64,000 nt of DNA from a virus. The translations under genes were made by a program, and so were the position numbers. Positions 4,956 to 63,162 of this stretch are shown here, piece by piece. The DNA is taken from the IMG/VR virus record IMGVR_UViG_3300023115_001125, positions 1 to 64,000 of that record; one strand, written 5' to 3'. The first letter of the stretch is position 1; each line of letters opens with the position of its first letter. The notes under the pieces were generated by a model, which saw only the letters and a list, made by a program, of their open reading frames with translations, ran no database searches and was not told where the DNA came from.

Positions 4956-4984
4956 AATATAACATTATAGTGTGTCGTTGTCAA
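4956..4984 (-). promoter_or_regulatory. sigma70-type early promoter for the DUF465-like operon
   Basis: TTGACA (4984-4979) and TATATT (4961-4956) are separated by 17 bases on the minus strand. The -35 box lies within the 3' coding end of the oxygenase gene at 4965-5555. A second TATAAT (4969-4964) lies between them at a poor spacing, so the exact start point is uncertain. Confidence 0.6.
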
Positions 4985-5555
4985 GTCCAAATCCTTCAAT
5001 ATCGCCATTAAATGCAATACTAATCCTATCTTTCTTGCTCCAATTTTCTTTAACTTGATGATTAATCCAACCTGGGAAAGAAACTAATTTACCAGTTTGT
5101 GGAATAACTGTAAATCTACAACCGTTATAAGAATTGGCCGCTTGAATTAGTTTAGGTGGTAGAGCATAGTCTACGATATTAGATGGGGGGAATAAAACTA
5201 AATCTCCGCAGTTTTGTTCGGCTTGTGGATAGTATACACAGGCTACGAAGTGTTTAGGGTGTAGATGTGTTTCTACAATGTTTGATGTTTGTTCTAAAGG
5301 CTTTTGTACATTTAGCCAAGCCTGTGTGGGTTTAATTTCATACCCATCAACCAAGTTCCACAGTTGTGTGAGCATTTTAAAATGTTCTCTTACCGCTTCT
5401 ACTAGCGGTTGAAGAACAGGCTCGGCTAAATTTAAATGATTACTTTGACCTCTGTGCTTAACATTCTTGTATGCAAACTTAATAAGTTCGTCATTGTTAA
5501 TGTCGCTAAGGTGCTCGTCTGAGAACGGAGTAGTAAACAAGTCAACTATTGCCAT
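4965..5555 (-). CDS. 2OG-Fe(II) oxygenase (2OG-FeII_Oxy_5-like)
   Basis: The 196-residue protein has the layout of the marine-phage oxygenase family. THLHPKHFVACVYY (H97, H99) forms the first metal-binding part, SFPGWINHQV supplies distal H166, and KKDRISIAFN supplies R177 for 2-oxoglutarate. The family catalyses Fe(II)-dependent hydroxylation, but phage substrates are unknown. Its last codons overlap an early promoter for the next gene. A good AAGGAG site precedes the ATG at 5555. Confidence 0.8.
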   Translation of the reverse strand: MAIVDLFTTPFSDEHLSDINNDELIKFAYKNVKHRGQSNHLNLAEPVLQPLVEAVREHFKMLTQLWNLVDGYEIKPTQAWLNVQKPLEQTSNIVETHLHPKHFVACVYYPQAEQNCGDLVLFPPSNIVDYALPPKLIQAANSYNGCRFTVIPQTGKLVSFPGWINHQVKENWSKKDRISIAFNGDIEGFGLDNDTL

Positions 5556-5568
5556 TCTCTGATCTCCT

Positions 5569-5757
5569 TTAAATTTTATTTTTAAATTTTAAAATAGCAT
5601 CTTTTAGTGCTAGTTTGATTTTCTTATGCCTTTGCAAAAGTTCTTTTGAAGTCCATGAACGATCTCCGTCACGTTCCTGTTCCATCTCTGTAACTTTTTT
5701 ATCGTAATATTGATGCTCTTCTTCTAAACGTTTTAGTTGCTTATTAGATTTGCTCAT
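5569..5757 (-). CDS. Small DUF465 (YdcH)-like coiled-coil protein
   Basis: The 62-residue protein contains RLEEEHQYYDKKVTEMEQE followed by LLQRHKKIKLALKDAI, the two-helix pattern of DUF465/YdcH. It overlaps the DpdA-like gene end by 14 bases, so it is co-translated with it. It is similar in form to the gene at 4783-4944, though not closely in sequence. The function is unknown; a structural accessory of the neighbouring enzyme is possible but unproven. Confidence 0.7.
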   Translation of the reverse strand: MSKSNKQLKRLEEEHQYYDKKVTEMEQERDGDRSWTSKELLQRHKKIKLALKDAILKFKNKI

Positions 5758-7300
5758 CTTCTAACTCCTCGAGTTTATGTTCTTGTTCTTCAGTAAATTC
5801 ACTGTCACTTGAGTCATCTGAAGTTGTTGTGTCTGCTTCTTCAAATAAATTAGCAAACTGTGTACTAGCATTAACTGTCTTTTTACCAGTAGCACCTCTA
5901 GTGCCAATAACTGACATCCAGAATCTTGAAAATTCTTCTATGACCGCATTCGCTTCGTCTCTGTTGTCAGTTGCAAATATCGCTTCCACAACATCTCTAA
6001 AAAATAACCTGTCAAAACGTTCTTCGACAAGCATCGCTGGAATTCTGCCTGCGTCATATTCTCTGTTTGCTTCTTGTACTGCATTAATGTGACTCCATAC
6101 ATTATGACCCATTTGGATCGCATATGAAAAACTATCCCAAGATGTTTTTCCTTCTTTACCTACTTTATTTAGATCGCCTGGTGCATAGATACAAACATCT
6201 TTGGCTGTTAGTCCTGTTGTAATAGGCGAGTCTTTAAAACTTCCGTGTTTGTTTTCACGTACAAATGCTTGACCAAACGGTGTAAGGTCTTGTGCTAAAC
6301 CTTTGTCGTCAATGCTAGGTACCATTCTGTATACCCATTTACTTCTATCTTTTGTTTCAAGTTCACAATAGATTTGACCATTTGCTGTTGCTAAGAATGG
6401 ACTAGCACAGTCAAATGTAATTGTAAAGTTTTCGTTATGATGTTTACGAACTGCTCTTTGTACATCAGTTAGTAGTGTTGCCCACTCTAGTTTACTTGTA
6501 CCCAAGAAGTGCATAAAGTCATGTTTGCCTTTTTCAAGTAATCCATCAAAACGTAGTGCAACAATACGTTTTAATGCTAGGTGAATATCACACATATTCT
6601 GACCACCCATTGACCACCCATTAAAGTGATCAGTATACTTTTTAGGATCGCAATAGTCTTTCATTTGCTGATACCAATCTTCTGCATCAGCATGATTCTC
6701 ACCTTGTAGTACATTTAAGAATTTACAATTACCATTACGATTTTTCATAAAGTAATCGTTATTAATACGTGTGGCATTTACTGCTTCTTGGTATGTACTA
6801 ATACCAGTTGCTTTAACACCTTGTGGACTACGAGCAACCCAAGCCGGAATATCAAGGATCATACCGTAATCCATATATTCGTCCATCCAACGTAAAACTT
6901 GTTCACGTTTCTTTTTCGCCTTAGGACAGTTAGGATCTTTCCAATCACCTTCCCATACACCTTTACCAATCTGGAATCCTCCAGAGTCGCCAAGCAACCA
7001 ACTAGTATTGCGATCTCTGTTTCGGATCATATCTTCTTTAGGTGAGTCTTTGTTAATATCTAATTCAGCGTGACCTGCGGAATACAATGACCAATTATAT
7101 TGAAACATACCGTCATTGCGATTTAACCAGTTCAGACTTTCAACGTCATTAGGAAAGTTACTAGGAATTCTAGTTCTTTCAACATATTCTTCACGACGCT
7201 GTTTACCAATGAATGTAGCATAGAAGCCACTAATCGCTGGTAGGAAGATTGCGTAATCCTTTTGCTGTGCTGTTAAGTCCGTATTCAAATTATTCTCCAA
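5744..7300 (-). CDS. dpdA: DpdA-like 7-deazaguanine DNA transglycosylase (TGT superfamily)
   Basis: The 518-residue protein has TGT-superfamily landmarks in order: LLGDSGGFQ at 102-110 (general-base Asp105), VLQGENH at 198-204, WSMGGQN at 229-235, HFLGTS at 264-269 and ITFDCASP at 294-301 (D297, in the position of the TGT nucleophile). DpdA enzymes exchange guanine in phage DNA for a 7-deazaguanine such as preQ0. The C-terminus is a low-complexity acidic tail. No clear TGT-type CxCxxC zinc site is visible, as expected for a divergent DNA-acting member. QueD (61.4 kb) and a T-fold protein (3.8 kb) support the pathway. A tRNA-acting TGT is the less likely alternative. Confidence 0.78.
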   Translation of the reverse strand: MENNLNTDLTAQQKDYAIFLPAISGFYATFIGKQRREEYVERTRIPSNFPNDVESLNWLNRNDGMFQYNWSLYSAGHAELDINKDSPKEDMIRNRDRNTSWLLGDSGGFQIGKGVWEGDWKDPNCPKAKKKREQVLRWMDEYMDYGMILDIPAWVARSPQGVKATGISTYQEAVNATRINNDYFMKNRNGNCKFLNVLQGENHADAEDWYQQMKDYCDPKKYTDHFNGWSMGGQNMCDIHLALKRIVALRFDGLLEKGKHDFMHFLGTSKLEWATLLTDVQRAVRKHHNENFTITFDCASPFLATANGQIYCELETKDRSKWVYRMVPSIDDKGLAQDLTPFGQAFVRENKHGSFKDSPITTGLTAKDVCIYAPGDLNKVGKEGKTSWDSFSYAIQMGHNVWSHINAVQEANREYDAGRIPAMLVEERFDRLFFRDVVEAIFATDNRDEANAVIEEFSRFWMSVIGTRGATGKKTVNASTQFANLFEEADTTTSDDSSDSEFTEEQEHKLEELEDEQI

Positions 7301-9376: not shown

Positions 9377-9698
9377 CGTATCTCTTTCCATCAAACACAC
9401 AAACAAAGTATAATTCTTCATCACCTGCGTGTACACGATGAAATACTCCGTCTTGAATTAGTACTGTATCGCCTGGATAAACACTAAACGTTTCATCATC
9501 AAGTTGCATATTACCTGTACCTTCGATAAACAAGTAAACTTCTTCTTGACCTTCGTGTTTATGTCCTGTTGTACTTTTATTAGGTCTTAATCTAGTACTA
9601 CTTACAATAAGATTTTTTAATCCTTTATTATCTTTTACAGTATAGCGGTCATCTTGTTTAACAACTTCACCGCCTATATCCCAGTTACCGAATTTCAT
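9369..9698 (-). CDS. Cupin_2 domain protein
   Basis: The 109-residue protein is a single small cupin. GHKHEGQEEVYLFIEGTGNM carries the first motif (H-x-H, Glu) and PGDTVLIQDGVFHRVHAG the second motif with its His. It resembles mannose-6-phosphate isomerase-type or sugar-binding cupins. Being next to a sugar epimerase gene, it could act in sugar-nucleotide metabolism, but the substrate is not determinable. It overlaps the DexA stop by 4 bases and the glycosylase start by 8. Confidence 0.78.
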   Translation of the reverse strand: MKFGNWDIGGEVVKQDDRYTVKDNKGLKNLIVSSTRLRPNKSTTGHKHEGQEEVYLFIEGTGNMQLDDETFSVYPGDTVLIQDGVFHRVHAGDEELYFVCVFDGKRYDA

Positions 9699-10237
9699 TT
9701 TTTCACTCCAAAATGTTTAAAGGTTGATTGGACACACTTTGCTTGATAATAACAATCTGCTAGTGCGTTGTGAGCCTCTTCTTGTATTGCCTTACGTGGA
9801 TCACTTGGCATCATACTAAATAGAGTTCTGCTGTCTCTAATTTGCCAATAGTTCCATGGGCAAGGTTTTCCTACTTGTTTGTATAAATTTTGTAGAATAG
9901 CGTAGTCAAACAACGGACCTTGACACCAAAGTTGGTCAAGTCCAACACACCATTTATTAATTGCTTTTGTAAGTGTATCCATGTTTACTCTATTCTCATG
10001 ATCACCAAATGCTTCGTCTTGAATATTTTGTTCTTGTCTACCCCACCAAGCAAGAGTATTATCATCAATTGAACGATTATACTTTTCTGATTGCTCTTCG
10101 ATATCACAACGTAGATATAATCCATCATGTGGCTCTGTATCAGAGTATGGATCAAACTTAATAGCACCAAGTGTAATAACTACACTATCTGGTTCTACAC
10201 CAAGTGTTTCTAAGTCTATCATTCCGTGAGTAGCCAT
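9695..10237 (-). CDS. dexA: DexA-like DnaQ-family 3'-5' exonuclease
   Basis: The 180-residue protein starts MATHGMIDLETLG with the ExoI Asp-x-Glu. It contains QGPLFDYAILQNLY (ExoII Asp) and HNALADCYYQA (ExoIII His-x4-Asp), matching the T4 exonuclease A (DexA) type of DEDDh nuclease. In T4, DexA degrades host DNA or processes ends. The ATG directly follows the polymerase stop, with GGAG in the polymerase coding end as its ribosome site, so it is coupled to gp43. Confidence 0.85.
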   Translation of the reverse strand: MATHGMIDLETLGVEPDSVVITLGAIKFDPYSDTEPHDGLYLRCDIEEQSEKYNRSIDDNTLAWWGRQEQNIQDEAFGDHENRVNMDTLTKAINKWCVGLDQLWCQGPLFDYAILQNLYKQVGKPCPWNYWQIRDSRTLFSMMPSDPRKAIQEEAHNALADCYYQAKCVQSTFKHFGVKK

Positions 10238-12907
10238 TTATTCTCCAAAGTCAAATAAATTGTTAAACGTATTTTTCTGTTGTGTACTACTTAGATCATA
10301 ATCCAACACACCGATAAGGTTATCTAGTTTATTATCAATAATAGTACCTTCCATAGCATCGTCATCAAATGGAAGTTCTTTAAACCAGTCCGGCAAACGT
10401 AGTTCATCTGTAGGATATGCAACACTTGTATACCCTAATGGATTCTGTTTTAGTTTACAAACAATAACTTTCATACCATCTACAATTTCTTGCGAGTATT
10501 TGTCACCGTTCATTTTCTTCAGTGTATTCCAATTGATACTTGCTCGAACGTGACCAGGCATATTTGTTTTGCCATCACGTTGTTCTTTTCGTAAGTATTC
10601 ACCAATCTTGTTTGCACGTTTAGGCGAACCTTTTTCAAAGCCAGGACGTATTTTAAATTCAGTTCTAAATTCTGTAATACGATCTAATACTTCTTTTTCA
10701 GATGCTTCTTTTAAAACCATAAGTAATAGTTCACTTAAAAATTCCTGCATAAACACAGGAGTATCTGAACGTTTAAGATCAAGACCCATTGCTTTTACTT
10801 TACCTGGCTTGCCATCAACATCTTTACGTTCACCTTCTTCATCATATACAAGTGCCGCATAACGTTTCTTTGTAATGTATAATCCTGTTTCAGCAACAAT
10901 TTCTCTACCTGCCGCAATAACATCTGAACGACTCTTTGGACAGTGAAATGCCTTTGCCATAAAGGCTTCAAAAGAACTGTTTGCTTCATCGCATACTTGG
11001 TCATAAAGTTTAATTACACTTTCTTTAGTCCACGGTATTTGACCTTCTTCAATTTCTTTCTTAAGAACTGGATATGCACTAAAGTACACAGAGTCAGTAT
11101 CACCATAGATAACACTTTCGCCTACGTGATCATATGTACCTGTAATAACTTTGTTTACTTCAGCGGCCATATGTTTTGCAATTTGTCTACCTGTTAGTGT
11201 AGTTGATTGTCCTATCCTCGGGTCAAAAAATCTGCAACCAGGATTAAGAATGGCCCCGTAAAGAGAGTTAAGATTAATCTTTTTAACAAGTTGCCTTTTG
11301 TCCCAAAATGCAATTTCAATTTTGTTTCCTGCATCAATTGCCTTCTTCTTCATTGCTTGGAGTTCTTTACGTTCAGCATACCAACGTTTTAGTAGTCCTG
11401 GAATAACACCATCAAACTCGGTTGTAAGTATTGTTCCGTTTGCTGTAAGCATCCAAGGGTTATTGCTATCAAAGATAATTTTATGAACTTCTGCCGCACT
11501 ATATACTTCAGGTTCTTTACCTTCCCAGTCTACAGTAATGTCAAAGTCTTTTCTCTTTTCCATAACTGCATCATATTCTAATGTTCCAAACTTACCTTCC
11601 CAAGCACCTGCAAATGATTTCTTTTGCAATGTCATTGCTTCTTCTAAGTATGCTTGTGTGTGATCAGGACGTAGTTGTCCAACGATAGTTGCTGGATCCA
11701 TATTCAATGCACGAATCACAGATGGATATAGTGAATTCAAGTCCATCGAACCAATCCACTTGTGTACACCTTTTTTAGGAAATGCAACATAAGCACCTGC
11801 CGCAGGATCACTACCTGGTTCACGTTTTGTCCTGTTAGGAACTTGTAGTCCTCTGTGATGTGCTTCGTTAATAATTGCTTGTTCTGTAACTGCTACCGCA
11901 CCCATTGTGGTCTGTAGCAAAACCGTATTTGCGTGTGCTAGTTCATTTGATAGGTCAATGAACTTTAGTTTTTGGTCCAACTTGTCCAGTAGTGCAACGT
12001 CTTGTCGGTTGTATTCGATGAACTTTCTGAAATCATTGTTATAAAGTTGATCGAGCGTACCTTCGTAAACAGTTTTGTTTTCGCCGACTTCCATTTCACC
12101 AATGGCATCAAGTCTGTAAGTATGTCTTTCTTCATATGTGTATTTACGATATAATTCCAAACTATCTAAATGCACTCTGCCTACTAGGTCATAGGTTTGT
12201 GCTGTTTTACCAAACTTTTCATACTCACGTTTTTTAGGAAGTTGTTTCCATAAACAAAAACGTCTTGTATCATCTTTGCTTAGTACACGAGCAACACGAT
12301 TAACTGTGTAAGGAATATCATAACCTTCACTGTTCCAACCACTTAGTATATCTGCATCTTGAATAATATCTAAGAATGCTTCAAGCATATCGCCTTCGTT
12401 ATCATACAAGTATGTGTTTGGAAATTCTTTTACTTCTTCTTTTGCTTGTTCCATTGTCAAACCTTTAGGCGGCATTGCAAATGTAACAAGACTATCTAGC
12501 CATTGTAAGTGTACTGTAATTGCAGTAATTGGCATAAATGGATCGCTTGGATCTGCGAATCCACGTTCTGGATCAAAGTCAGTCTCAATGTCAAAGAAGC
12601 AAACATTTAGTTTTGGAGCATCAACGTTTAAATAATTTTCACTTAAACATTGGAATATAGGATTAATATCACTTTCAAACAGTTCTTTGTTTTGATTAAT
12701 AGCAAGTTCTTTTCTAAATTGCTTTGTATTTTTTGCTACAATACGTGATAACGGATCGCCAAAGATACTTTTATACTTTCCTCTTTGGTCTTTATAATAG
12801 AATGTATATTTAATTGGATATTCTGTAAGGTGTCGCTTACCGTCTTTTCGTTCTACTACACGAATAATATCTTGGTCGCGATCAAAGATTGCATCTACAT
12901 AACTCAT
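10238..12907 (-). CDS. 43: DNA polymerase, family B (T4 gp43-like)
   Basis: The 889-residue protein has all expected motifs. The proofreading exonuclease shows FFDIET (D106, E108), GWNSEGYD (D197) and YNRQD (Y299, D303). The polymerase shows motif A DLNSLYPS at 389-396, motif B around KKINLNSLYG at 542-551 and motif C YGDTDS (D603, D605). The C-terminal peptide NLFDFGE resembles the T4 polymerase tail that binds the sliding clamp. The length is close to T4 gp43 (898). A hairpin lies immediately before the ribosome site, matching the location of the translational autoregulation operator known for T4/RB69 gp43. Confidence 0.95.
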   Translation of the reverse strand: MSYVDAIFDRDQDIIRVVERKDGKRHLTEYPIKYTFYYKDQRGKYKSIFGDPLSRIVAKNTKQFRKELAINQNKELFESDINPIFQCLSENYLNVDAPKLNVCFFDIETDFDPERGFADPSDPFMPITAITVHLQWLDSLVTFAMPPKGLTMEQAKEEVKEFPNTYLYDNEGDMLEAFLDIIQDADILSGWNSEGYDIPYTVNRVARVLSKDDTRRFCLWKQLPKKREYEKFGKTAQTYDLVGRVHLDSLELYRKYTYEERHTYRLDAIGEMEVGENKTVYEGTLDQLYNNDFRKFIEYNRQDVALLDKLDQKLKFIDLSNELAHANTVLLQTTMGAVAVTEQAIINEAHHRGLQVPNRTKREPGSDPAAGAYVAFPKKGVHKWIGSMDLNSLYPSVIRALNMDPATIVGQLRPDHTQAYLEEAMTLQKKSFAGAWEGKFGTLEYDAVMEKRKDFDITVDWEGKEPEVYSAAEVHKIIFDSNNPWMLTANGTILTTEFDGVIPGLLKRWYAERKELQAMKKKAIDAGNKIEIAFWDKRQLVKKINLNSLYGAILNPGCRFFDPRIGQSTTLTGRQIAKHMAAEVNKVITGTYDHVGESVIYGDTDSVYFSAYPVLKKEIEEGQIPWTKESVIKLYDQVCDEANSSFEAFMAKAFHCPKSRSDVIAAGREIVAETGLYITKKRYAALVYDEEGERKDVDGKPGKVKAMGLDLKRSDTPVFMQEFLSELLLMVLKEASEKEVLDRITEFRTEFKIRPGFEKGSPKRANKIGEYLRKEQRDGKTNMPGHVRASINWNTLKKMNGDKYSQEIVDGMKVIVCKLKQNPLGYTSVAYPTDELRLPDWFKELPFDDDAMEGTIIDNKLDNLIGVLDYDLSSTQQKNTFNNLFDFGE

Positions 12908-14076: not shown

Positions 14077-14105
14077 ATTATATATTCGTTTGTTCTTAAT
14101 GTCAA
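14077..14105 (-). promoter_or_regulatory. Consensus sigma70-type early promoter for the DsbA-like operon
   Basis: TTGACA (14105-14100), 17 bases, TATAAT (14082-14077) on the minus strand: a perfect match to the sigma70 consensus. The -35 box overlaps the stop region of the oxygenase gene upstream, and the leader is about 19 bases. Confidence 0.85.
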
Positions 14106-14638
14106 GTCGCTTGTGGTCTTTCCATAGTCAAATTGCCACTAACAATAACTCGTTCAAAATCTGTTTCTTGAATTGGTACCATGTGTGTTACCCAACCAGG
14201 AAAAATAACAATAAGACCTGGTTCGGGTTGAATGGCTCTTTCAGCAGTTGGAAATACTAAAGGAGCACATTCTTCCGAAGCATCAACATAATAACAAAAA
14301 CTCCAAAGTGCTGGATGATGGGCGTGTGGTAGGGTTTCACCTCCTCTTTTATAAATTGCACCCCAGCAATCTGTTGCATAAAAATTTCCTTGTGGTACTG
14401 GATCTAATCCTTCTTCCAAAAGTTCTATAGCAAAGTCAATAATTTTTTTGAAATGCGGATTGTCATACATAGTCCAACGTGTCATATCCGCTTTGACATT
14501 TGTTTTATGGTATTGTTGATCACCTTGTTCCTTAATACAAGAAATAAGGTCTGCTTTGATAGATTCCTTTTCGTGGAACATACCAGTAAAAATATTCGCT
14601 CGTTCTTTAAACTCAAAAGTTTGAATATGTGGTACCAT
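14102..14638 (-). CDS. 2OG-Fe(II) oxygenase (2OG-FeII_Oxy_5-like)
   Basis: The 178-residue protein shows LPHAHHPALWSFCYYVDASE as the first metal-binding region, IVIFPGWVTHMVP with the distal His, and ERVIVSGNL with the 2-oxoglutarate-binding Arg. The N-terminal HIQTFEFKERANIF is typical of this phage subfamily. No ribosome site precedes the ATG at 14638. Instead a CATAAATA late-type box ends 5 bases before it, which would give a leaderless late transcript. Confidence 0.8.
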   Translation of the reverse strand: MVPHIQTFEFKERANIFTGMFHEKESIKADLISCIKEQGDQQYHKTNVKADMTRWTMYDNPHFKKIIDFAIELLEEGLDPVPQGNFYATDCWGAIYKRGGETLPHAHHPALWSFCYYVDASEECAPLVFPTAERAIQPEPGLIVIFPGWVTHMVPIQETDFERVIVSGNLTMERPQAT

Positions 14639-32721: not shown

Positions 32722-33053
32722 TATTGTCCTCCTGGCTTATCACTAAAATATTTTTCAAATTTACCTTCAACGCCTTGCCATTCTTCTGCATCTTCAGGTT
32801 CAGTACCTTTAACAGTAATGTTAGGCCATTCTTGACTGTATTTAAGATTTAATTGCATCCATTTACCGTCATCCTGGCTTTCAGTGATAATTGCTTCTGC
32901 TGGACATTCTGGTTCACATACACCGCAATCAATACATTCGTCAGGGTTAATTACAAGCATATTTTCACCTTCATAAAAGCAGTCTACCGGACATACTTCT
33001 ACGCAATCCATGTGTTTACATTTAATACACTTGTCGTTAACTAAGTAACTCAT
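32721..33053 (-). CDS. fdxA: FdxA-like 7Fe/8Fe ferredoxin
   Basis: The 110-residue protein begins [20 protein letters not shown] with two cluster motifs: [17 protein letters not shown] and [12 protein letters not shown]. The pattern is that of bacterial FdxA ferredoxins, with the extended C-terminal region seen in alphaproteobacteria. It carries electrons; likely partners in the phage are unknown, but radical or flavin enzymes such as ThyX nearby are possible. Good similarity to a cellular family suggests acquisition from a host. Confidence 0.9.
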
Positions 33054-33967
33054 TATAACCTCGCAAGTTTAATTAGTGTTGCTGACAAGTTAATTTCTGG
33101 ATCAACAACTAGTGTATGATCTACAAGTCCTTGTTTGATAATTAAAATTGCTTTATCTTGTGTTTCTTCATCGCCAAACAATTCAATATTGTCATACAAC
33201 CAACGATAAATTTCTTCCATCTCTTCTGTACGAACTGTACCACAAAGAAGTTTACGTGCTTCTTTAATTTTGCCTGCTTTAAACAGTTCAACCATATCAA
33301 GTTTCCAGTCTGCTTCTGACTTATCACTTTCATTTGGTGCAAGTAACTTTCCATCTTGAGAATTCATTTGTACCATATTGATACATTTACGCAAGTCCGG
33401 ATATGTTGCTTTTACATAAGTGTCTAATGTATCTAAATCAGGTTGTACACCTTCTGTAATTAGAATTTCTGCTACACGAGCAGTAAACTCTGTTTGATCT
33501 ACTTTAGCAATATGGAATCCTTGACACCTACTGTGAATAGCAGGAATAATTCTGTTTGGGTAGTTACAAGTTAAGATAAAACGTGCAGTAGTATGATATT
33601 CTTCCATTACACCACGTAGTGCCGCCTGTGCGTTTGGACTCAAGTAATCAGCCTCGTCTAGCAGTACAACCTTAAACTCACCAAATGGAATCATTTGTAC
33701 AAAGTTTACAATCTTATCACGAACGTCATCTACTGAGTTTGTTCGCGATGCGTTAATTTCTAGTATGTCTAAGTCGTTAATTTCTAGTTCATTGAAAAGA
33801 ATCTTAGCAAGTGTTGTTTTACCAATACCTGCATTACCACTAAACAACAAATGCGGAATTGTACCTTCTTTAATCCAGTTCTTTACTTGTGATTTTTGAT
33901 GTTCATCTCTGAACACATAACCATCTACTGTTTTAGGACGATATTTTTCTACCCATAGTTCTTTCAT
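33053..33967 (-). CDS. 44: Clamp loader large subunit (T4 gp44-like)
   Basis: The 304-residue protein is an RFC-small-type AAA+ ATPase: [20 protein letters not shown], Walker A GNAGIGKT at 44-51, Walker B VVLLDEAD ending at 107, and the SRC motif at 146-148. It loads the gp45 clamp onto DNA. In T4 it works with gp62, which I do not find in this window. It follows a small gene by an ATGA overlap and has an internal promoter 60 bases further upstream. Confidence 0.93.
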
Positions 33968-34755: not shown

Positions 34756-35379
34756 CTAATTGTGATTAGGAAATATCTTTTCTTGTTGATCTTTGAATAT
34801 TGGCATTACAATATTTCTAGATTGTGCAAATGGTGTTGAACGACCACTAAAGACAAACCCAACACTAGTTCTTGGTTCTATTTCTTTTGGTGGAATCCCT
34901 CTATGAATAAATTTACTTGGAAAAACAATGCAACGGCCTTCTTTATATAATACAGACTTGATCATTTTACCACCGTTATCTGGGTTATCATCCCAAAAAT
35001 CCATTCCACTGTCTCCGCTGACTAGATATACCATAGTATAAGCAGGTACATCTTCGCCGCTGTCGACGTGCAATCCACCGACTAGATTCTTAGTTGTAAT
35101 GTTTACTTGTACTTGATTTAATTGTAAGTCACCAATGTTATCACCTAGTTTATCTTTCTGTCCATTGAATGCACTCCATACTGCTTTTAATTGCCATGGA
35201 GCATTTTCAAGTTCTTGGTGTGTCCATTGATTACTAAAAAATTGATGCCCTTGATACGGACCTAATCCTCTATGTCCAAATGACACCTTAGTATGTGGAA
35301 TTTCTGCAACTACTTCGTTATGCAACCAACTAGGTACAATATCATCTAATACTATAATGTCATCTGGATTATATTTCAT
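34756..35379 (-). CDS. 2OG-Fe(II) oxygenase, prolyl-4-hydroxylase-like
   Basis: The 207-residue protein has GLHVDSGEDVPAYTMVYLVS with the H-x-D metal motif, then GRCIVFPSKFIHRGIPP with the distal His, and EPRTSVGFVFSG with the 2-oxoglutarate-binding Arg. It keeps H-x-D, unlike the H-x-H members of this genome. The N-terminal part (DIIVLDDIVPSWLHNEVVAE) is typical of phage P4H-like enzymes. Hydroxylation substrate unknown. Confidence 0.82.
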   Translation of the reverse strand: MKYNPDDIIVLDDIVPSWLHNEVVAEIPHTKVSFGHRGLGPYQGHQFFSNQWTHQELENAPWQLKAVWSAFNGQKDKLGDNIGDLQLNQVQVNITTKNLVGGLHVDSGEDVPAYTMVYLVSGDSGMDFWDDNPDNGGKMIKSVLYKEGRCIVFPSKFIHRGIPPKEIEPRTSVGFVFSGRSTPFAQSRNIVMPIFKDQQEKIFPNHN

Positions 35380-36249: not shown

Positions 36250-36666
36250 CTATTCACCTTTCTTTACAAAGTTACCAGCATCGTCTTCAACCCACTCTGT
36301 ACCAGTTTCTTCAGCCTCGGCATCAATATCTGCCATTTCTGCTTCTACTGAATTTGCAGGCGCTTCTTTCTTAACTGCTTCTACTTTAGGAGTAGGAGCC
36401 GCCGCTGGTGTTGATGTTGGAGTTGCTGTTTCTTTGCGAGGTGACTCATCTGGAACTGCTTGTGGATGATCTCTATAATATTCGTCTAGAATATCATCAC
36501 GACGCCTAATAATTTTACCACCTGGGCCTAATTCATCGCCACGTGCATTTACACGAGCATTTCCAACCGCAGGAGTAAGTTCATTTTTTTGACGTAGTAA
36601 GTCCATGTCAACTTGCTTACCTTGCATTGACTTATAAACTTTACGTCCAGTTTGTTTCATCGCCAT
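36250..36666 (-). CDS. Conserved T4-like phage protein of unknown function
   Basis: The 138-residue protein has a basic N-terminal half (MAMKQTGRKVYKSMQGKQVD, then NARVNARGDELGPGGKIIRR) and a disordered Ala/Pro/Glu-rich second half ending in an acidic region. I recall relatives in marine T4-like phages. A late GATAAATA box lies 26 bases upstream, with AAGGAGA as ribosome site. Late expression suggests a virion or assembly role. Confidence 0.65.
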   Translation of the reverse strand: MAMKQTGRKVYKSMQGKQVDMDLLRQKNELTPAVGNARVNARGDELGPGGKIIRRRDDILDEYYRDHPQAVPDESPRKETATPTSTPAAAPTPKVEAVKKEAPANSVEAEMADIDAEAEETGTEWVEDDAGNFVKKGE

Positions 36667-36691: not shown

Positions 36692-36699
36692 TATTTATC
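36692..36699 (-). promoter_or_regulatory. Late promoter box GATAAATA
   Basis: Minus-strand box 26 bases before the ATG at 36666. It overlaps the stop codon of the DnaE-like gene. Confidence 0.65.
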
Positions 36700-37252
36700 T
36701 TAGGAACTCACGCCAATCGAGGTCAAAGTGGATTGAGTCTACCCTATGAATTCCAATAATATATAGCACATAACTTGCTACACTTGATCCTCTTCCGACA
36801 CCCCATACAATATTGTTTTCACGCATATAATCAACCAAATATACCAAATATTGTAATAATGGATACATTCCTCTTTCAAAAAACTCAGTTAATTCTTCGG
36901 TAATACGTATCCATTCCTTTGTATCACGTAATGCTACTGGATCATCAATTTGTAATTTTTCCATTAATTTTGCTTCAAGCCATTTGTTTGGATTTAATTG
37001 TTTATACTCTTCTGGCATAAACCATTCGCTTTGACAAACATTATCAAATTCTTTTTGTTCTACATCTAATGGAATATATTTTTGTAATGGATTCATACCT
37101 TGTTCTTCCATTACTTTATTAAACTTATCAATATCGTCACTAGGGTCGCAGAGAACTACATGACACTTGTCAATGTTTCCTGTATAGATCATTTCTATCA
37201 GGTCACGATTAGAAAATCGTGGTATTCCTAGAGAATCAGTTTTCATAAGCAT
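36695..37252 (-). CDS. Short DnaE/PolC-like fragment protein
   Basis: The 185-residue protein ends with VDYMRENNIVWGVGRGSSVA followed by a SYVLYIIGIHRVDSIHFDLDWREFLR-type region. This matches the segment of bacterial DNA polymerase III alpha subunit around GxGRGSxxxSLVxYxLGIT-xDP-xxxxLxFERFLN. The rest of DnaE (PHP, palm Asp triad, fingers) is absent, so it cannot be a polymerase. A nucleotide- or primer-binding role, or interference with host Pol III, is possible. It has its own promoter. Confidence 0.65.
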   Translation of the reverse strand: MLMKTDSLGIPRFSNRDLIEMIYTGNIDKCHVVLCDPSDDIDKFNKVMEEQGMNPLQKYIPLDVEQKEFDNVCQSEWFMPEEYKQLNPNKWLEAKLMEKLQIDDPVALRDTKEWIRITEELTEFFERGMYPLLQYLVYLVDYMRENNIVWGVGRGSSVASYVLYIIGIHRVDSIHFDLDWREFLR

Positions 37253-37259
37253 ATAGTAT

Positions 37260-37288
37260 ATTTTAATCGATATTGATCAAATTGTCAA
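37260..37288 (-). promoter_or_regulatory. sigma70-type early promoter for the DnaE-like gene
   Basis: TTGACA (37288-37283), 17 bases, TAAAAT (37265-37260) on the minus strand, inside the 3' end of the 74-codon gene. Transcription would start almost at the ATG (37252 or 37246). Confidence 0.6.
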
Positions 37289-37487
37289 GATCTTTATCAG
37301 GATTATTGATAGTTTGTTTTACCAATCTGTCTCGTTGTTCTAATTTTAAATGGTCAAGAATGATAGTGATTTGACGTTTTGCGTCAGGATTTCTAGTTTG
37401 GAAATATTTTTTAGTTAGTGTGCTGATGTTAGCATCTAGATCTGCATCCGATAGATTTTCGGCGTTATTAAATAGCGGATGATCCAT
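37263..37487 (-). CDS. Small conserved phage protein
   Basis: The 74-residue helical protein reads MDHPLFNNAENLSDADLDAN, then KKYFQTRNPDAKRQITIILD, then a C-terminal acidic region. I recall similar short proteins in marine T4-like phages next to tail genes. The function is unknown. AAGAGGTAATT precedes the ATG. Confidence 0.65.
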   Translation of the reverse strand: MDHPLFNNAENLSDADLDANISTLTKKYFQTRNPDAKRQITIILDHLKLEQRDRLVKQTINNPDKDLDNLINID

Positions 37488-43249: not shown

Positions 43250-44884
43250 TTATCCTTTAGTGAAGCCACTTGAACTTGTATACTTAATTTTATCAGGTGA
43301 ATTTAAAGGAAAATATACTACCTTATTTGTACCACCATATAACCGTGGTGTAGTATTTGCGTACACATAATCATCTGGACCACCTGTGTCATATAATTCT
43401 TCTTGGGCTATATTTTGTAACCAGTCTTTAAATTGTTGAGCAGTTGCACCTGGATTTGCCTGCATATACAAACAACAAATTCCTGCAATTTGAGGAGCCG
43501 CCATGCTAGTTCCACTAATTCTTGCAATATAGTGTGCATTGCTTTCCGGGTGTGGTTGTTTTGTGCTATAAGTTGATTGTGTACCTGTGGCACTTGTAAT
43601 TTGTGTACCAGCGGCATTAATATCTAATCTTTCGCCACGTTCACTTGATTCTGCTAACATTTCTTCACCGCCAAAATCTGTATTATCAATGTTGCCAACC
43701 CATACAGTATCTAATGAATGTGGTGAACTAGGTCTATTATAATATATAGGGTTACCTGCTACAATGTAGCCGGCCCATGATTCATTAAGTGTGTAATAAC
43801 TGTTATAACGTGTACTACCATATTGTCCTGAAGCCTGGCCAGCACAAGGATGATATCCATTACCTGCGGCTTTAATGCAAATAACACCAGCATCAGTTAA
43901 TTGTTCTTGTTCAACATCTGCTGGAAGATATTCCATAGGGTGCCTTGAACCTGTACACCCATATTGTGCAAATGTTGCCGAACTAAATGTTTGTGGTGCT
44001 ATGTTTTGGTTAACTCCTCTAAACCAAATAGTTTGAATATTTGGAGGAGTAAAAAAATCTCCGTTATTGTAGTACCAACTGTAGCCCCAACTTTGATTTA
44101 CTACTGTAGGACGTTTATAACCTGTTTTAGGATCTACTGGTTTTTGTTCGTGGAATAATCTTATTAGATCGTATCTATCAGTATCTATTCTATAACCAGT
44201 TCCGCCAAAAATTCTCATGCTGTATATAGTTGCGTTCTTTGCCCAGCCATACGTTTTACCTGCGGCAATACCACAACAATGGCTACCATGTGCGCCACCT
44301 GGGTTTGAGTCGTTGGAACCTGGCGAATAAAAGTTCGCAGGCATTGATCCTGCTAATCCGGTTAGTTCATACCAATCAACTTGTTGGAATCGTGTATTAC
44401 CGTCTGCATCTTCCCATTCAGGATGTCCTGTTGGGTCAACACCGTCGTCTTGAATAATTAAATCAACGCCAGTTCCGTCCAGTGTATATGTATAGTCTGC
44501 ATTATTTGTTGTTGAAGTATCGTCAACAGCGCCTAGGGATTTTTGAATATGTCTCCATAATCCCCAGTTAACACTATTTTGTGCATTGTTAGTTGATCTT
44601 TGAAAATTTCCTGTTTGTGTTGCATAAAGTTCTTGTGTTTCGTCTAGTGGTCTAGTTGATACAGATAAAATTCTTGGGTCTGTTGAAAGTGTTTGTGCTT
44701 CTTCGTCAGTCAAATTGTAGTGTGTCATTCTGTTGTTAAATTGACGAGCATTTACTACATCAACTGATCTATCAGGTATTGCATCTGAAACAGAATCGTC
44801 CATTGAAGTATCACGTTGTAGGTCTGCATCTAACTCTGCAACGTCAACACCTTTTACAGTTACTACAATATATTCTTTTTCCAT
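43250..44884 (-). CDS. Subtilisin-like serine protease (S8) of the tail cluster
   Basis: The 544-residue protein has the S8 triad: Asp146 in DLIIQDDGVD, His202 in GAHGSHCCGIA, Ser460 in RISGTSMAAPQIAG, and the oxyanion Asn342 in AAGNGYH. The N-terminal 80 residues (EYIVVTVKGVDVAELDADL) look like an inhibitor-I9-type prodomain. No signal peptide is seen, so it is probably on the virion rather than secreted. It may cut host surface proteins during adsorption or process tail proteins. A paralogue lies directly upstream. Confidence 0.85.
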   Translation of the reverse strand: MEKEYIVVTVKGVDVAELDADLQRDTSMDDSVSDAIPDRSVDVVNARQFNNRMTHYNLTDEEAQTLSTDPRILSVSTRPLDETQELYATQTGNFQRSTNNAQNSVNWGLWRHIQKSLGAVDDTSTTNNADYTYTLDGTGVDLIIQDDGVDPTGHPEWEDADGNTRFQQVDWYELTGLAGSMPANFYSPGSNDSNPGGAHGSHCCGIAAGKTYGWAKNATIYSMRIFGGTGYRIDTDRYDLIRLFHEQKPVDPKTGYKRPTVVNQSWGYSWYYNNGDFFTPPNIQTIWFRGVNQNIAPQTFSSATFAQYGCTGSRHPMEYLPADVEQEQLTDAGVICIKAAGNGYHPCAGQASGQYGSTRYNSYYTLNESWAGYIVAGNPIYYNRPSSPHSLDTVWVGNIDNTDFGGEEMLAESSERGERLDINAAGTQITSATGTQSTYSTKQPHPESNAHYIARISGTSMAAPQIAGICCLYMQANPGATAQQFKDWLQNIAQEELYDTGGPDDYVYANTTPRLYGGTNKVVYFPLNSPDKIKYTSSSGFTKG

Positions 44885-44892
44885 AATTTAAA

Positions 44893-46389
44893 TTAATCCT
44901 GTCTTAATGCTCTATGTCCTGCAAAAGGAAAATAAGCAATTCTATTCACACCGTTATATAAACTTCTTGTATTTGAGAAAAACGTAGACGCATTATTTTC
45001 GTCGGTATCACCTTGGAACATTAGGCCTTTAATACTACCTTGATTATGCCACCACTGTCTTGCTTGTGCTGGCGTCCACCCTGGGTTAAGTTGCATCAAC
45101 AAACAAGTCATTCCACTAATTTGTGGTGTACTCATACTTGTTCCTGTATAGTTTGCTACGGCAGTCGGACTTGAATTATATGCACTAACAATATCAGTAC
45201 CAGCAACCCACACATCAACCCTTGGACCTTTGTCGCTTGATGTTGCAGTTGCTTCTTCACCGTTATATAATCCACTATCTAGATTACCACAAACAATAGT
45301 GTTTGGACCAATGTTGCCTGCACCTCTGTTATAGTAAATAGGACTTCCTGCTGTAATGCCGCCTGTTGTAATACTTCTAGTAATATAGTTGTTGTAATCG
45401 ATGTCTCCAACGGAGCATAATTTTTGTCCTTGGTTACCTGCACTTTTTACATATATTACTCCAACCTCTTCCATTTCTTCAACTTCAACATTTAGGTTAT
45501 AAAGGTTAGCGTTAAATCTATTTGAAATATCTCCAATCATTCCATATTGTGATGATTTGACTGTGCCTACACTACTGCCTCTAAACACAATATCAGTTAT
45601 GCTTGTAAAGTATGCTTTGTATCCCCAACTAGCACCAACTATGGTCGGACGCTTAACACCAGTAATTGGGTCTGGTGTTTTTGCTTTGTGAAATTCTTTA
45701 ATAGCATCAAACCAAGCACTTGAACTAATAGTGTTCATATCTAAGCAATAGATATTTGCATTCTTTGCCCAACCGTAATCTTTACCTACAGCCGTACCAC
45801 AACAGTGGGTAGCATGATAACTTGATCCTGATATGTTGTCATAGTCCTGTGTTAACTCAGCACCCATGTTTGGAAGTGTGTTCCATTGGAATCTTTGTAA
45901 ACGACTATTACCGTCTTTATCTTCCCATTGTTCATGATCGTATCTAAATTTAGTTTCTTGGTGTACATAATCAACACCAGTACCATCTAAATGGTAATCA
46001 TAAGTTCCGCCAATATCACTAGTTACATTTGAGCCCCATGGATTGCTTTCATTTACGTGTCTAGTAAATGCCCAATTATCTCTAGTAGTGCTTGTACCAT
46101 CTCTTTGGTTGTTTAATTCTTGTTGATAGTCTGCCCATTCATCGTCCCAAGTTAATGGTTCGTTTACACCACCTACCCTTGGATCATTCATTAATGCTTC
46201 TGCTTCAGCATCAGATAATTCTACTTCAAAAATACGTTGACTTGACGGACGAGTATTTACATTATCAACTTGTCTATCAGGAATAATATTACTATCAACC
46301 CAACTGTCGCTAGTTGTGTCTCTGTTTAGTTCGTCCATTATTTCTGATTTATCGTATCCTTTAACTAAAGACACTACATAATGTTTCAT
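44893..46389 (-). CDS. Subtilisin-like paralogue with altered catalytic Asp
   Basis: The 498-residue protein is similar throughout to the downstream S8 protease, including the I9-like N-terminus and shared TDGTGVD, AKNANIY and GEEATATSSDKGPR-type segments. His195 (YHATHCCGTA), Asn (KSAGNQ) and Ser (YTGTSMSTPQISG) are present. At the catalytic Asp position the sequence is HQETKF, where the sister has QDDGVD, so Asp is Glu145 and the Gly is lost. It may be inactive and keep only a structural or binding role. Confidence 0.8.
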   Translation of the reverse strand: MKHYVVSLVKGYDKSEIMDELNRDTTSDSWVDSNIIPDRQVDNVNTRPSSQRIFEVELSDAEAEALMNDPRVGGVNEPLTWDDEWADYQQELNNQRDGTSTTRDNWAFTRHVNESNPWGSNVTSDIGGTYDYHLDGTGVDYVHQETKFRYDHEQWEDKDGNSRLQRFQWNTLPNMGAELTQDYDNISGSSYHATHCCGTAVGKDYGWAKNANIYCLDMNTISSSAWFDAIKEFHKAKTPDPITGVKRPTIVGASWGYKAYFTSITDIVFRGSSVGTVKSSQYGMIGDISNRFNANLYNLNVEVEEMEEVGVIYVKSAGNQGQKLCSVGDIDYNNYITRSITTGGITAGSPIYYNRGAGNIGPNTIVCGNLDSGLYNGEEATATSSDKGPRVDVWVAGTDIVSAYNSSPTAVANYTGTSMSTPQISGMTCLLMQLNPGWTPAQARQWWHNQGSIKGLMFQGDTDENNASTFFSNTRSLYNGVNRIAYFPFAGHRALRQD

Positions 46390-61919: not shown

Positions 61920-61936
61920 TTATTTGCTTTTGTCAA
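61908..61936 (-). promoter_or_regulatory. sigma70-type early promoter for queD
   Basis: TTGACA (61936-61931), 17 bases, TATACT (61913-61908) on the minus strand. The -35 box lies in the final codons of the upstream oxygenase gene. Confidence 0.78.
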
Positions 61937-62531
61937 GTCTTTTGTGGTACGTATTAAAACTTATAGTTACTCGTTTTGTAGTTGTGTTTGGTGTTGAATA
62001 GTGATACAACCAACTAGGAAACAGTATTAACAGTTCGCTTCTAGGTTGAAACTCCATATTATTAGTTGTATAATACGTAGCCTTGTTGTGTATTTCAGCC
62101 ATTTTAGGTCCAAGTATAGGACTTTCAAATACTAGTGGCGCACTACCTTCTTCAACAATTGGATAATATGCTCCGCTAATAATTGATAACTCGTGCCTGT
62201 GTTTGTTGATTACACCTTGTTCCTCTTGTATGTTAAGCCAACTCTTTCCAAGTTCTACAATGTCAAGACCTGCATCTTCACAATACTCGTCAAGACAATC
62301 CTGAATGCCTGTTCTTACTTTTGTTAATTCTTTCGAATGTAGAAAGTTCATTTCATGTTGGCTAGAAGTTTTACCATTGCCAATATCATCAGGCCATACA
62401 GTTAGGTCTTTGTAGTTGTTTAGATATTCTTTTTCTTCAGTGCCAAAAGGAACTTGGTACACCTGTACTAGTGTAGGAAAGATATCATATGTTGCTTTTC
62501 TAAACGTTCCGTCAACTATCGACGCTCTCAT
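61920..62531 (-). CDS. 2OG-Fe(II) oxygenase (2OG-FeII_Oxy_5-like)
   Basis: The 203-residue protein has NKHRHELSIISGAYYPIVEE, LILFPSWLYHYSTPN and TKRVTISFNTYHK, the three family regions with H-x-H, distal His and Arg. It is a close paralogue of the gene directly upstream, with which it overlaps by 20 bases; this is a tandem duplication. Substrate unknown. Confidence 0.85.
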   Translation of the reverse strand: MRASIVDGTFRKATYDIFPTLVQVYQVPFGTEEKEYLNNYKDLTVWPDDIGNGKTSSQHEMNFLHSKELTKVRTGIQDCLDEYCEDAGLDIVELGKSWLNIQEEQGVINKHRHELSIISGAYYPIVEEGSAPLVFESPILGPKMAEIHNKATYYTTNNMEFQPRSELLILFPSWLYHYSTPNTTTKRVTISFNTYHKRLDKSK

Positions 62532-63162
62532 GCTTTTCCATCCTATAATCTCTTAGAGTAGAGTAGTAATCTCTGTCCATGTGTCGAACTGTATTAAAAC
62601 TAATTGTATATCTTTTTTGTGTAGGATTTCTAGGAACACTATGTCGCAACCAACTTGGGAAAATAACTAATAGTCCTGTCTTTGGCATACATTCAATTTC
62701 GTAACGATTATAATTTGTAAGGTTGATACTGTTAGTGTTCATAAAGTTTGCTTGAATAGGACTTTCAAGAATTAAAGGCGAACTGCCTGGATCAACATAA
62801 GGATAGTATGCTCCACTAATAACACTTCTTTCGTGTCTGTGAGCATCAACTAAACCACCTTCATACAAACAATTAAACCAACTAGTACTAAGCAATGTAT
62901 AATCAATACCTGCTTCTTGTGTATAAATGTCACAGCACTCTTGAATTGTTTTCCATAGGTCTGTTAGTCTTTTGTCATTTAGGAATTGTTCGTCACCTTT
63001 AATATAACTACTTTGGCCTTCGTGAACTAATCTATGATTTCCTGTTGCTTCGAACTTTTCGATTAATTCTAAAACTGTTTTTTCATCTTTGTGTCCTTCT
63101 AATTCAAAAGTTGAGATTAGAGTAGGAAAAGCCTGATGATGAACAAAATCAATTGCTGACAT
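62512..63162 (-). CDS. 2OG-Fe(II) oxygenase (2OG-FeII_Oxy_5-like), tandem paralogue
   Basis: The 216-residue protein shows DAHRHERSVISGAYYPYVDP, LVIFPSWLRHSVPRN and QKRYTISFNTVRH, the same pattern as the following gene. The N-terminus (VHHQAFPTLISTFELEGHKD) also matches it. The pair probably arose by duplication and may act on related substrates. It overlaps the upstream gene by 14 bases. Confidence 0.85.
   Translation of the reverse strand: MSAIDFVHHQAFPTLISTFELEGHKDEKTVLELIEKFEATGNHRLVHEGQSSYIKGDEQFLNDKRLTDLWKTIQECCDIYTQEAGIDYTLLSTSWFNCLYEGGLVDAHRHERSVISGAYYPYVDPGSSPLILESPIQANFMNTNSINLTNYNRYEIECMPKTGLLVIFPSWLRHSVPRNPTQKRYTISFNTVRHMDRDYYSTLRDYRMEKHESVDS

Follow-up and report, generated by a model that had tools for sequence, protein, structure and literature searches.

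The window, the whole 64,000-nt stretch analysed here (positions 1 to 64,000 of the 117,515-base viral record IMGVR_UViG_3300023115_001125), contains an ORF that runs on the minus strand from 37252 to 36695, at exactly the coordinates given by an earlier sequence-only reading. We refer to its product as the N unit, and to a complementary protein found in related phages as the C unit. The features relevant to the locus are:

37263–37487, minus strand: 74-aa ORF upstream of the N unit, its 3′ end overlapping the promoter

37260–37288, minus strand: predicted sigma-70 type promoter, TTGACA-N17-TAAAAT, the −10 element ending 7 nt before the ATG; no Shine-Dalgarno sequence

36695–37252, minus strand: very probably the N unit of a split minimal Pol III alpha (185 aa, TAA stop); matches phrog_11127 over residues 9–185 (1.7e-35)

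36701–36928, minus strand: part homologous to the DnaE palm (residues 109–184, equivalent to PF07733 positions 19–94)

36785–36802, minus strand: GxGRGS motif (residues 151–156), aligning with E. coli DnaE 359–364

36250–36666, minus strand: conserved small protein encoded downstream (phrog_14844), homologous to gp57 of Escherichia phage 121Q

35808–36245, minus strand: Cpn10/gp31-like cochaperonin, in a conserved neighbourhood (synteny)

33053–33967, minus strand: gp44-like clamp-loader AAA+ ATPase, in a conserved neighbourhood

10238–12907, minus strand: family B DNA polymerase with its own exonuclease domain, the accompanying replicase of the same phage

The N unit resembles Pol III alpha far more than would be expected by chance. 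There were matches to Pfam PF07733 over residues 109–184 (2.7e-10) and to NCBIfam TIGR00594 over residues 75–184 (4.2e-9), and a profile comparison using hhalign aligned the protein to E. coli DnaE 323–393 (E = 4.4e-7). The earlier assignment to the GRGS segment of DnaE is upheld by all three, and the similarity reaches well past the short motif. In an alignment of relatives, every position of GxGRGS was invariant except residue 152. No DnaE homology was detectable in the first ~75 residues; weak Pfam matches to MazE-like and TRAF RING families were below the cut-off and were disregarded.

The sequence-only reading had also placed the stop at the end of the DnaE FERFLN motif, and the alignment to E. 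coli DnaE bears this out: the C-terminus coincides with FERFLN, and the stop is the equivalent of residue 393, eight residues short of the catalytic Asp401. Gly363-Ser364 of E. coli DnaE fall within the aligned part, while Met399, Asp401 and Asp403 lie 6 to 10 residues past the N-unit end, with Asp555 further on. The equivalents of the catalytic aspartates (Asp401, Asp403 and Asp555) are thus all outside the chain, and Pfam and NCBIfam searches gave no match to a PHP domain in the 185-aa ORF. What is present is a stand-alone protein with GRGS and without a PHP domain or DxD. As had been claimed, the rest of DnaE is missing: profile searches of the entire 117,515-base record found none of it. 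Completion through a frameshift or an adjacent frame is ruled out, as the flanking ORFs, among them the next gene (phrog_14844), are unrelated.

The promoter that had been proposed is well supported by comparison. Of 158 relatives, 153 (93 of the 94 distinct sequences) retain a TTGAC(A/G) element, a 17-bp spacer and TANNNT, against a background rate of 0.7% for the pattern, although part of this conservation may stem from the overlapping end of the upstream ORF. In the relatives the −10 element ends 6–7 nt ahead of the ATG, and none of the 158 has an SD-like motif. Since a start site about 7 nt past the −10 element would coincide with the ATG, the N-unit mRNA is probably leaderless. The candidate promoter of the window (37288–37260) therefore stands, and its ‘early’ timing is credible only. 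Strong promoters of the TTGACW-16/17-TATAAT type were seen to end 6–8 nt before start codons at several genes of this phage (ATGs at 26588, 60080 and 77803 of the record, in addition to the N-unit promoter at 37260–37288 of the window). Several promoters abutting start codons suggest that this phage makes leaderless early transcripts.

The N-unit ORF was found in at least 80 marine viral contigs at 54–100% identity, and all complete copies examined stop at an identical position. Relatives with N units 71–72% identical to that of the window have genomes of 236 and 275 kb. The N unit also occurs in the isolated jumbo phages PA5oct/MIJ3, 121Q (gp56), GAP32, RaK2, CBB, XacN1, Atu_ph07, Phosso and SCTP-2; a scan using the divergent Phosso N unit gave nothing new. 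Across 210 pairs of closely related copies the median dN/dS was 0.10, showing that the gene is under purifying selection. After the N unit, the isolates examined have a small ORF, then a small protein that is GroES-like or of similar size and, shortly afterwards, a gp44-like clamp loader. The window shares this order (phrog_14844, Cpn10, MazG, gp44), and its N unit is accompanied by both a family B polymerase and an RFC-type clamp loader.

Other genes of the window were noted in passing, all on the minus strand. Directly after the family B polymerase gene there is a gene for a stand-alone Rv2179c-like 3′-5′ exonuclease (9695–10237). An ORF at 34756–35379 is 2OG-Fe(II) oxygenase-like, with matches to phrog_81 and phrog_274, and further ORFs of this kind were picked out by eye at 486–1655, 4965–5555, 14102–14638, 61920–62531 and 62512–63162. 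Inspection by eye also revealed TGT/DpdA-like motifs (DSGGFQ) at 5744–7300, perhaps belonging to a DNA 7-deazaguanine modification enzyme, and motifs of the HGSHCCG and GTSMAAPQIAG type in two neighbouring subtilisin-like protease ORFs (43250–44884 and 44893–46389) amid tail-fibre-like genes.

The C unit was first met as weak second TIGR00594 matches in relatives, lying exactly past the split. The proteins are 186–191 aa long and begin with MPDIDIDF in the marine phages. Compared with E. coli DnaE, to which the C unit maps from Met399 and the N unit at ~320–393, the equivalents of Asp401 and Asp403, KH..G, K-x-Asp555, the IRP loop and F-x-KSH are all kept. The thumb-bearing stretch is lost (about 20 residues, compared with about 100 in E. 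coli), as are roughly 85–90 of the residues that precede F-x-KSH in the E. coli protein. Mapped onto M. tuberculosis DnaE1 (5lew), the profile of the N unit reaches residue 407 and that of the C unit begins at 413 (MPDIDIDF). Between them, the two units therefore cover the active site, leaving a gap of about five residues. Like the N unit, the C unit is constrained, with a median dN/dS of 0.12.

The two genes are inherited together. A BLAST search with one C unit detected the gene in all 10 N-bearing records that are 236 kb or longer, and in none of 12 records that are 165 kb or shorter, the window's own among them. Among isolates, all 60 listed records with a C unit carry an N unit too; these include many close relatives and represent perhaps ten independent lineages. 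The C unit sits amid replication genes for a UvsW-like helicase, a primase and a DnaB-like helicase (in 121Q, whose C unit is gp16, the cluster comprises genes 10, 16, 19 and 20). A separate exonuclease subunit gene (gp9) is also present within the 121Q cluster. Both PHROGs families, phrog_11127 (N) and phrog_11778 (C), are already labelled ‘DNA polymerase’.

A profile search did not find the C unit in the window's own 117.5-kb record, and this record also has no primase, DnaB-like or UvsW-like helicase genes. Since the whole cluster is missing, the record is incomplete, and an incomplete genome best explains the absence of the C unit; the second gene is presumed to lie in the unsequenced part of this phage. 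One 261.8-kb genome (G016) has the reverse pattern, with a C unit and no N unit. It is also without the family B polymerase and gp44, and so is probably missing the N-unit region. Two marine contigs carry a C unit plus a ~550-aa PHP-less single-chain DnaE (L191:130–1776, minus strand; L189:1390–3045, plus strand), which matches PF07733 at 7e-42, has fingers as well and adjoins a DnaB-like helicase. Both contigs are partial, and neither yielded a family B polymerase.

AF2 models were built from alignments of 56 (N) and 52 (C) sequences. The N-unit model had a mean pLDDT of 74, with most of residues 81–140 above 90; the C-unit model had a mean of 80, with only ~53–68 at the aspartate-bearing strand. 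Such low confidence at the metal-binding strand would be expected if the halves need each other. When the models were compared with the PDB using Foldseek, Pol III alpha chains took ranks 1–9 (N) and 1–15 (C), the best of them with probabilities near 1 and E-values of only ~4e-3. The predicted folds are thus supportive of kinship with Pol III alpha, though not strong evidence taken alone.

In the Pol III/Pol-beta nucleotidyltransferase family, the GRGS segment of DnaE makes contact with the triphosphate of the dNTP, and the metals are held by three aspartates. For these roles in DnaE, PMC7824862 cites Lamers 2006. We consider it very probable that the N unit is the dNTP-binding, N-terminal subunit of a minimal Pol III alpha that is specific to phages, consists of two proteins and exists beside a family B polymerase. 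The active-site parts are divided between two proteins that are inherited together in very distant phages, each incomplete alone, so that an obligate heterodimeric nucleotidyltransferase is the most economical reading. The N unit would supply the GRGS segment that binds the incoming dNTP, the ~186-aa C unit would supply the Mg2+-binding aspartates and part of the fingers, and the two would dock into one fold of the Pol-beta type. It is from their sequences and distribution that we infer complex formation, activity and the role of the pair.

As the pair is without PHP, thumb, clamp- and tau-binding parts, we would expect a small polymerase or nucleotidyltransferase, probably distributive, that acts alongside the family B replicase. 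The absence of these parts, together with the presence of a family B polymerase with an exonuclease domain, makes an auxiliary role likelier than bulk replication; priming, gap filling or repair are possible jobs. Loss of the thumb makes ordinary DNA polymerisation by the pair uncertain. More tentatively, the two proteins, encoded far apart, might assemble into a functional Pol III-type nucleotidyltransferase of ~370 residues that lacks a thumb, acts independently of the clamp and has a task of its own beside the family B replicase, possibly near the ancestral bacterial Pol III; we regard this as possible rather than probable.

The sequence-only reading had suggested that the protein may mimic part of host Pol III and so disturb host replication; as a decoy it would bind host Pol III, the clamp or dNTPs. 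A stand-alone GRGS piece with an early-type promoter is compatible with this, but the N unit is universal in a phage group whose hosts are enterobacterial, pseudomonad, rhizobial and marine, its gene adjoins the phage's own replication and assembly genes, and complete genomes pair it with a protein carrying the complementary catalytic aspartates. The DnaE regions that bind the clamp and tau are absent from the N unit, which also counts against a decoy. The mimicry proposal is thus unsupported and in our view very improbable. The sequence-only reading was right in recognizing a stand-alone piece of Pol III alpha with GRGS, and its other suggestion, a reused nucleotide-binding unit, comes closer, but one half of a split enzyme is a more specific account and the better fit.

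One might also suspect a DnaE gene that was captured and is now decaying, since DnaE is present only as a fragment, and the CBB homologue has been called ‘truncated’ (PMC5259590). The conservation data refute it: a median dN/dS of 0.10 is that of a gene under strong purifying selection rather than decay, the endpoint is identical in the complete copies examined, and synteny and promoter are conserved. It is also conceivable, though unlikely, that the complex of the N and C units has ceased to be a DNA polymerase and acts instead as a template-independent or RNA/primer nucleotidyltransferase or as a structural replisome factor. The missing thumb, PHP, beta- and tau-binding parts would suit such a complex, as would the presence in the phage of a family B replicase that includes an exonuclease domain. 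However, very distant phages retain the three catalytic aspartates, GRGS, KH..G, IRP and F.KSH, and this speaks for dNTP-dependent catalysis.

The split itself is not new as a genomic observation. Iyer et al. 2021 (PMC7824862) described a split minimal Pol III alpha in jumbo phages of group 2.2 and predicted that both units assemble into an active nucleotidyltransferase; from their description, and from the presence of Atu_ph07 in their group, their two proteins appear to be the N and C units reported here. A survey of marine jumbo phages (PMC9123017) found the PF07733 domain to be the commonest unique gene of one large cluster and the only one in more than half of it. Our literature search found no experimental test that the halves bind or polymerise. 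With a bacterial replicase core encoded as two small separate proteins, which lend themselves to expression and mixing, the smallest working Pol III catalytic core becomes directly testable, and one may ask why a split Pol III alpha persists in phages that have a complete family B replisome.

Like the group 2.2 system, the window has a stand-alone NTP-binding N unit without PHP, a family B polymerase and an RFC-type clamp loader. In group 2.2 the separate Mg2+/template-binding unit is encoded far away; here it was seen in the relatives and not in the sequenced part of this phage. Unlike the phages of that report, the one studied here is marine, and the available text (PMC7824862) makes no mention of a conserved promoter of the leaderless type. 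The ~550-aa DnaE of the two marine contigs is likewise a minimal phage Pol III alpha without a PHP domain, but differs in having GRGS, DxD and fingers in a single chain, encoded beside a DnaB-like helicase. With bacterial DnaE (PF07733; E. coli 2hnh, M. tuberculosis 5lew) the N unit shares GRGS, the flanking helices and a FERFLN-like end. Whereas E. coli DnaE is one 1160-residue chain that unites PHP, thumb, fingers, clamp- and tau-binding parts and all catalytic aspartates, the N unit is the N-terminal palm piece only.
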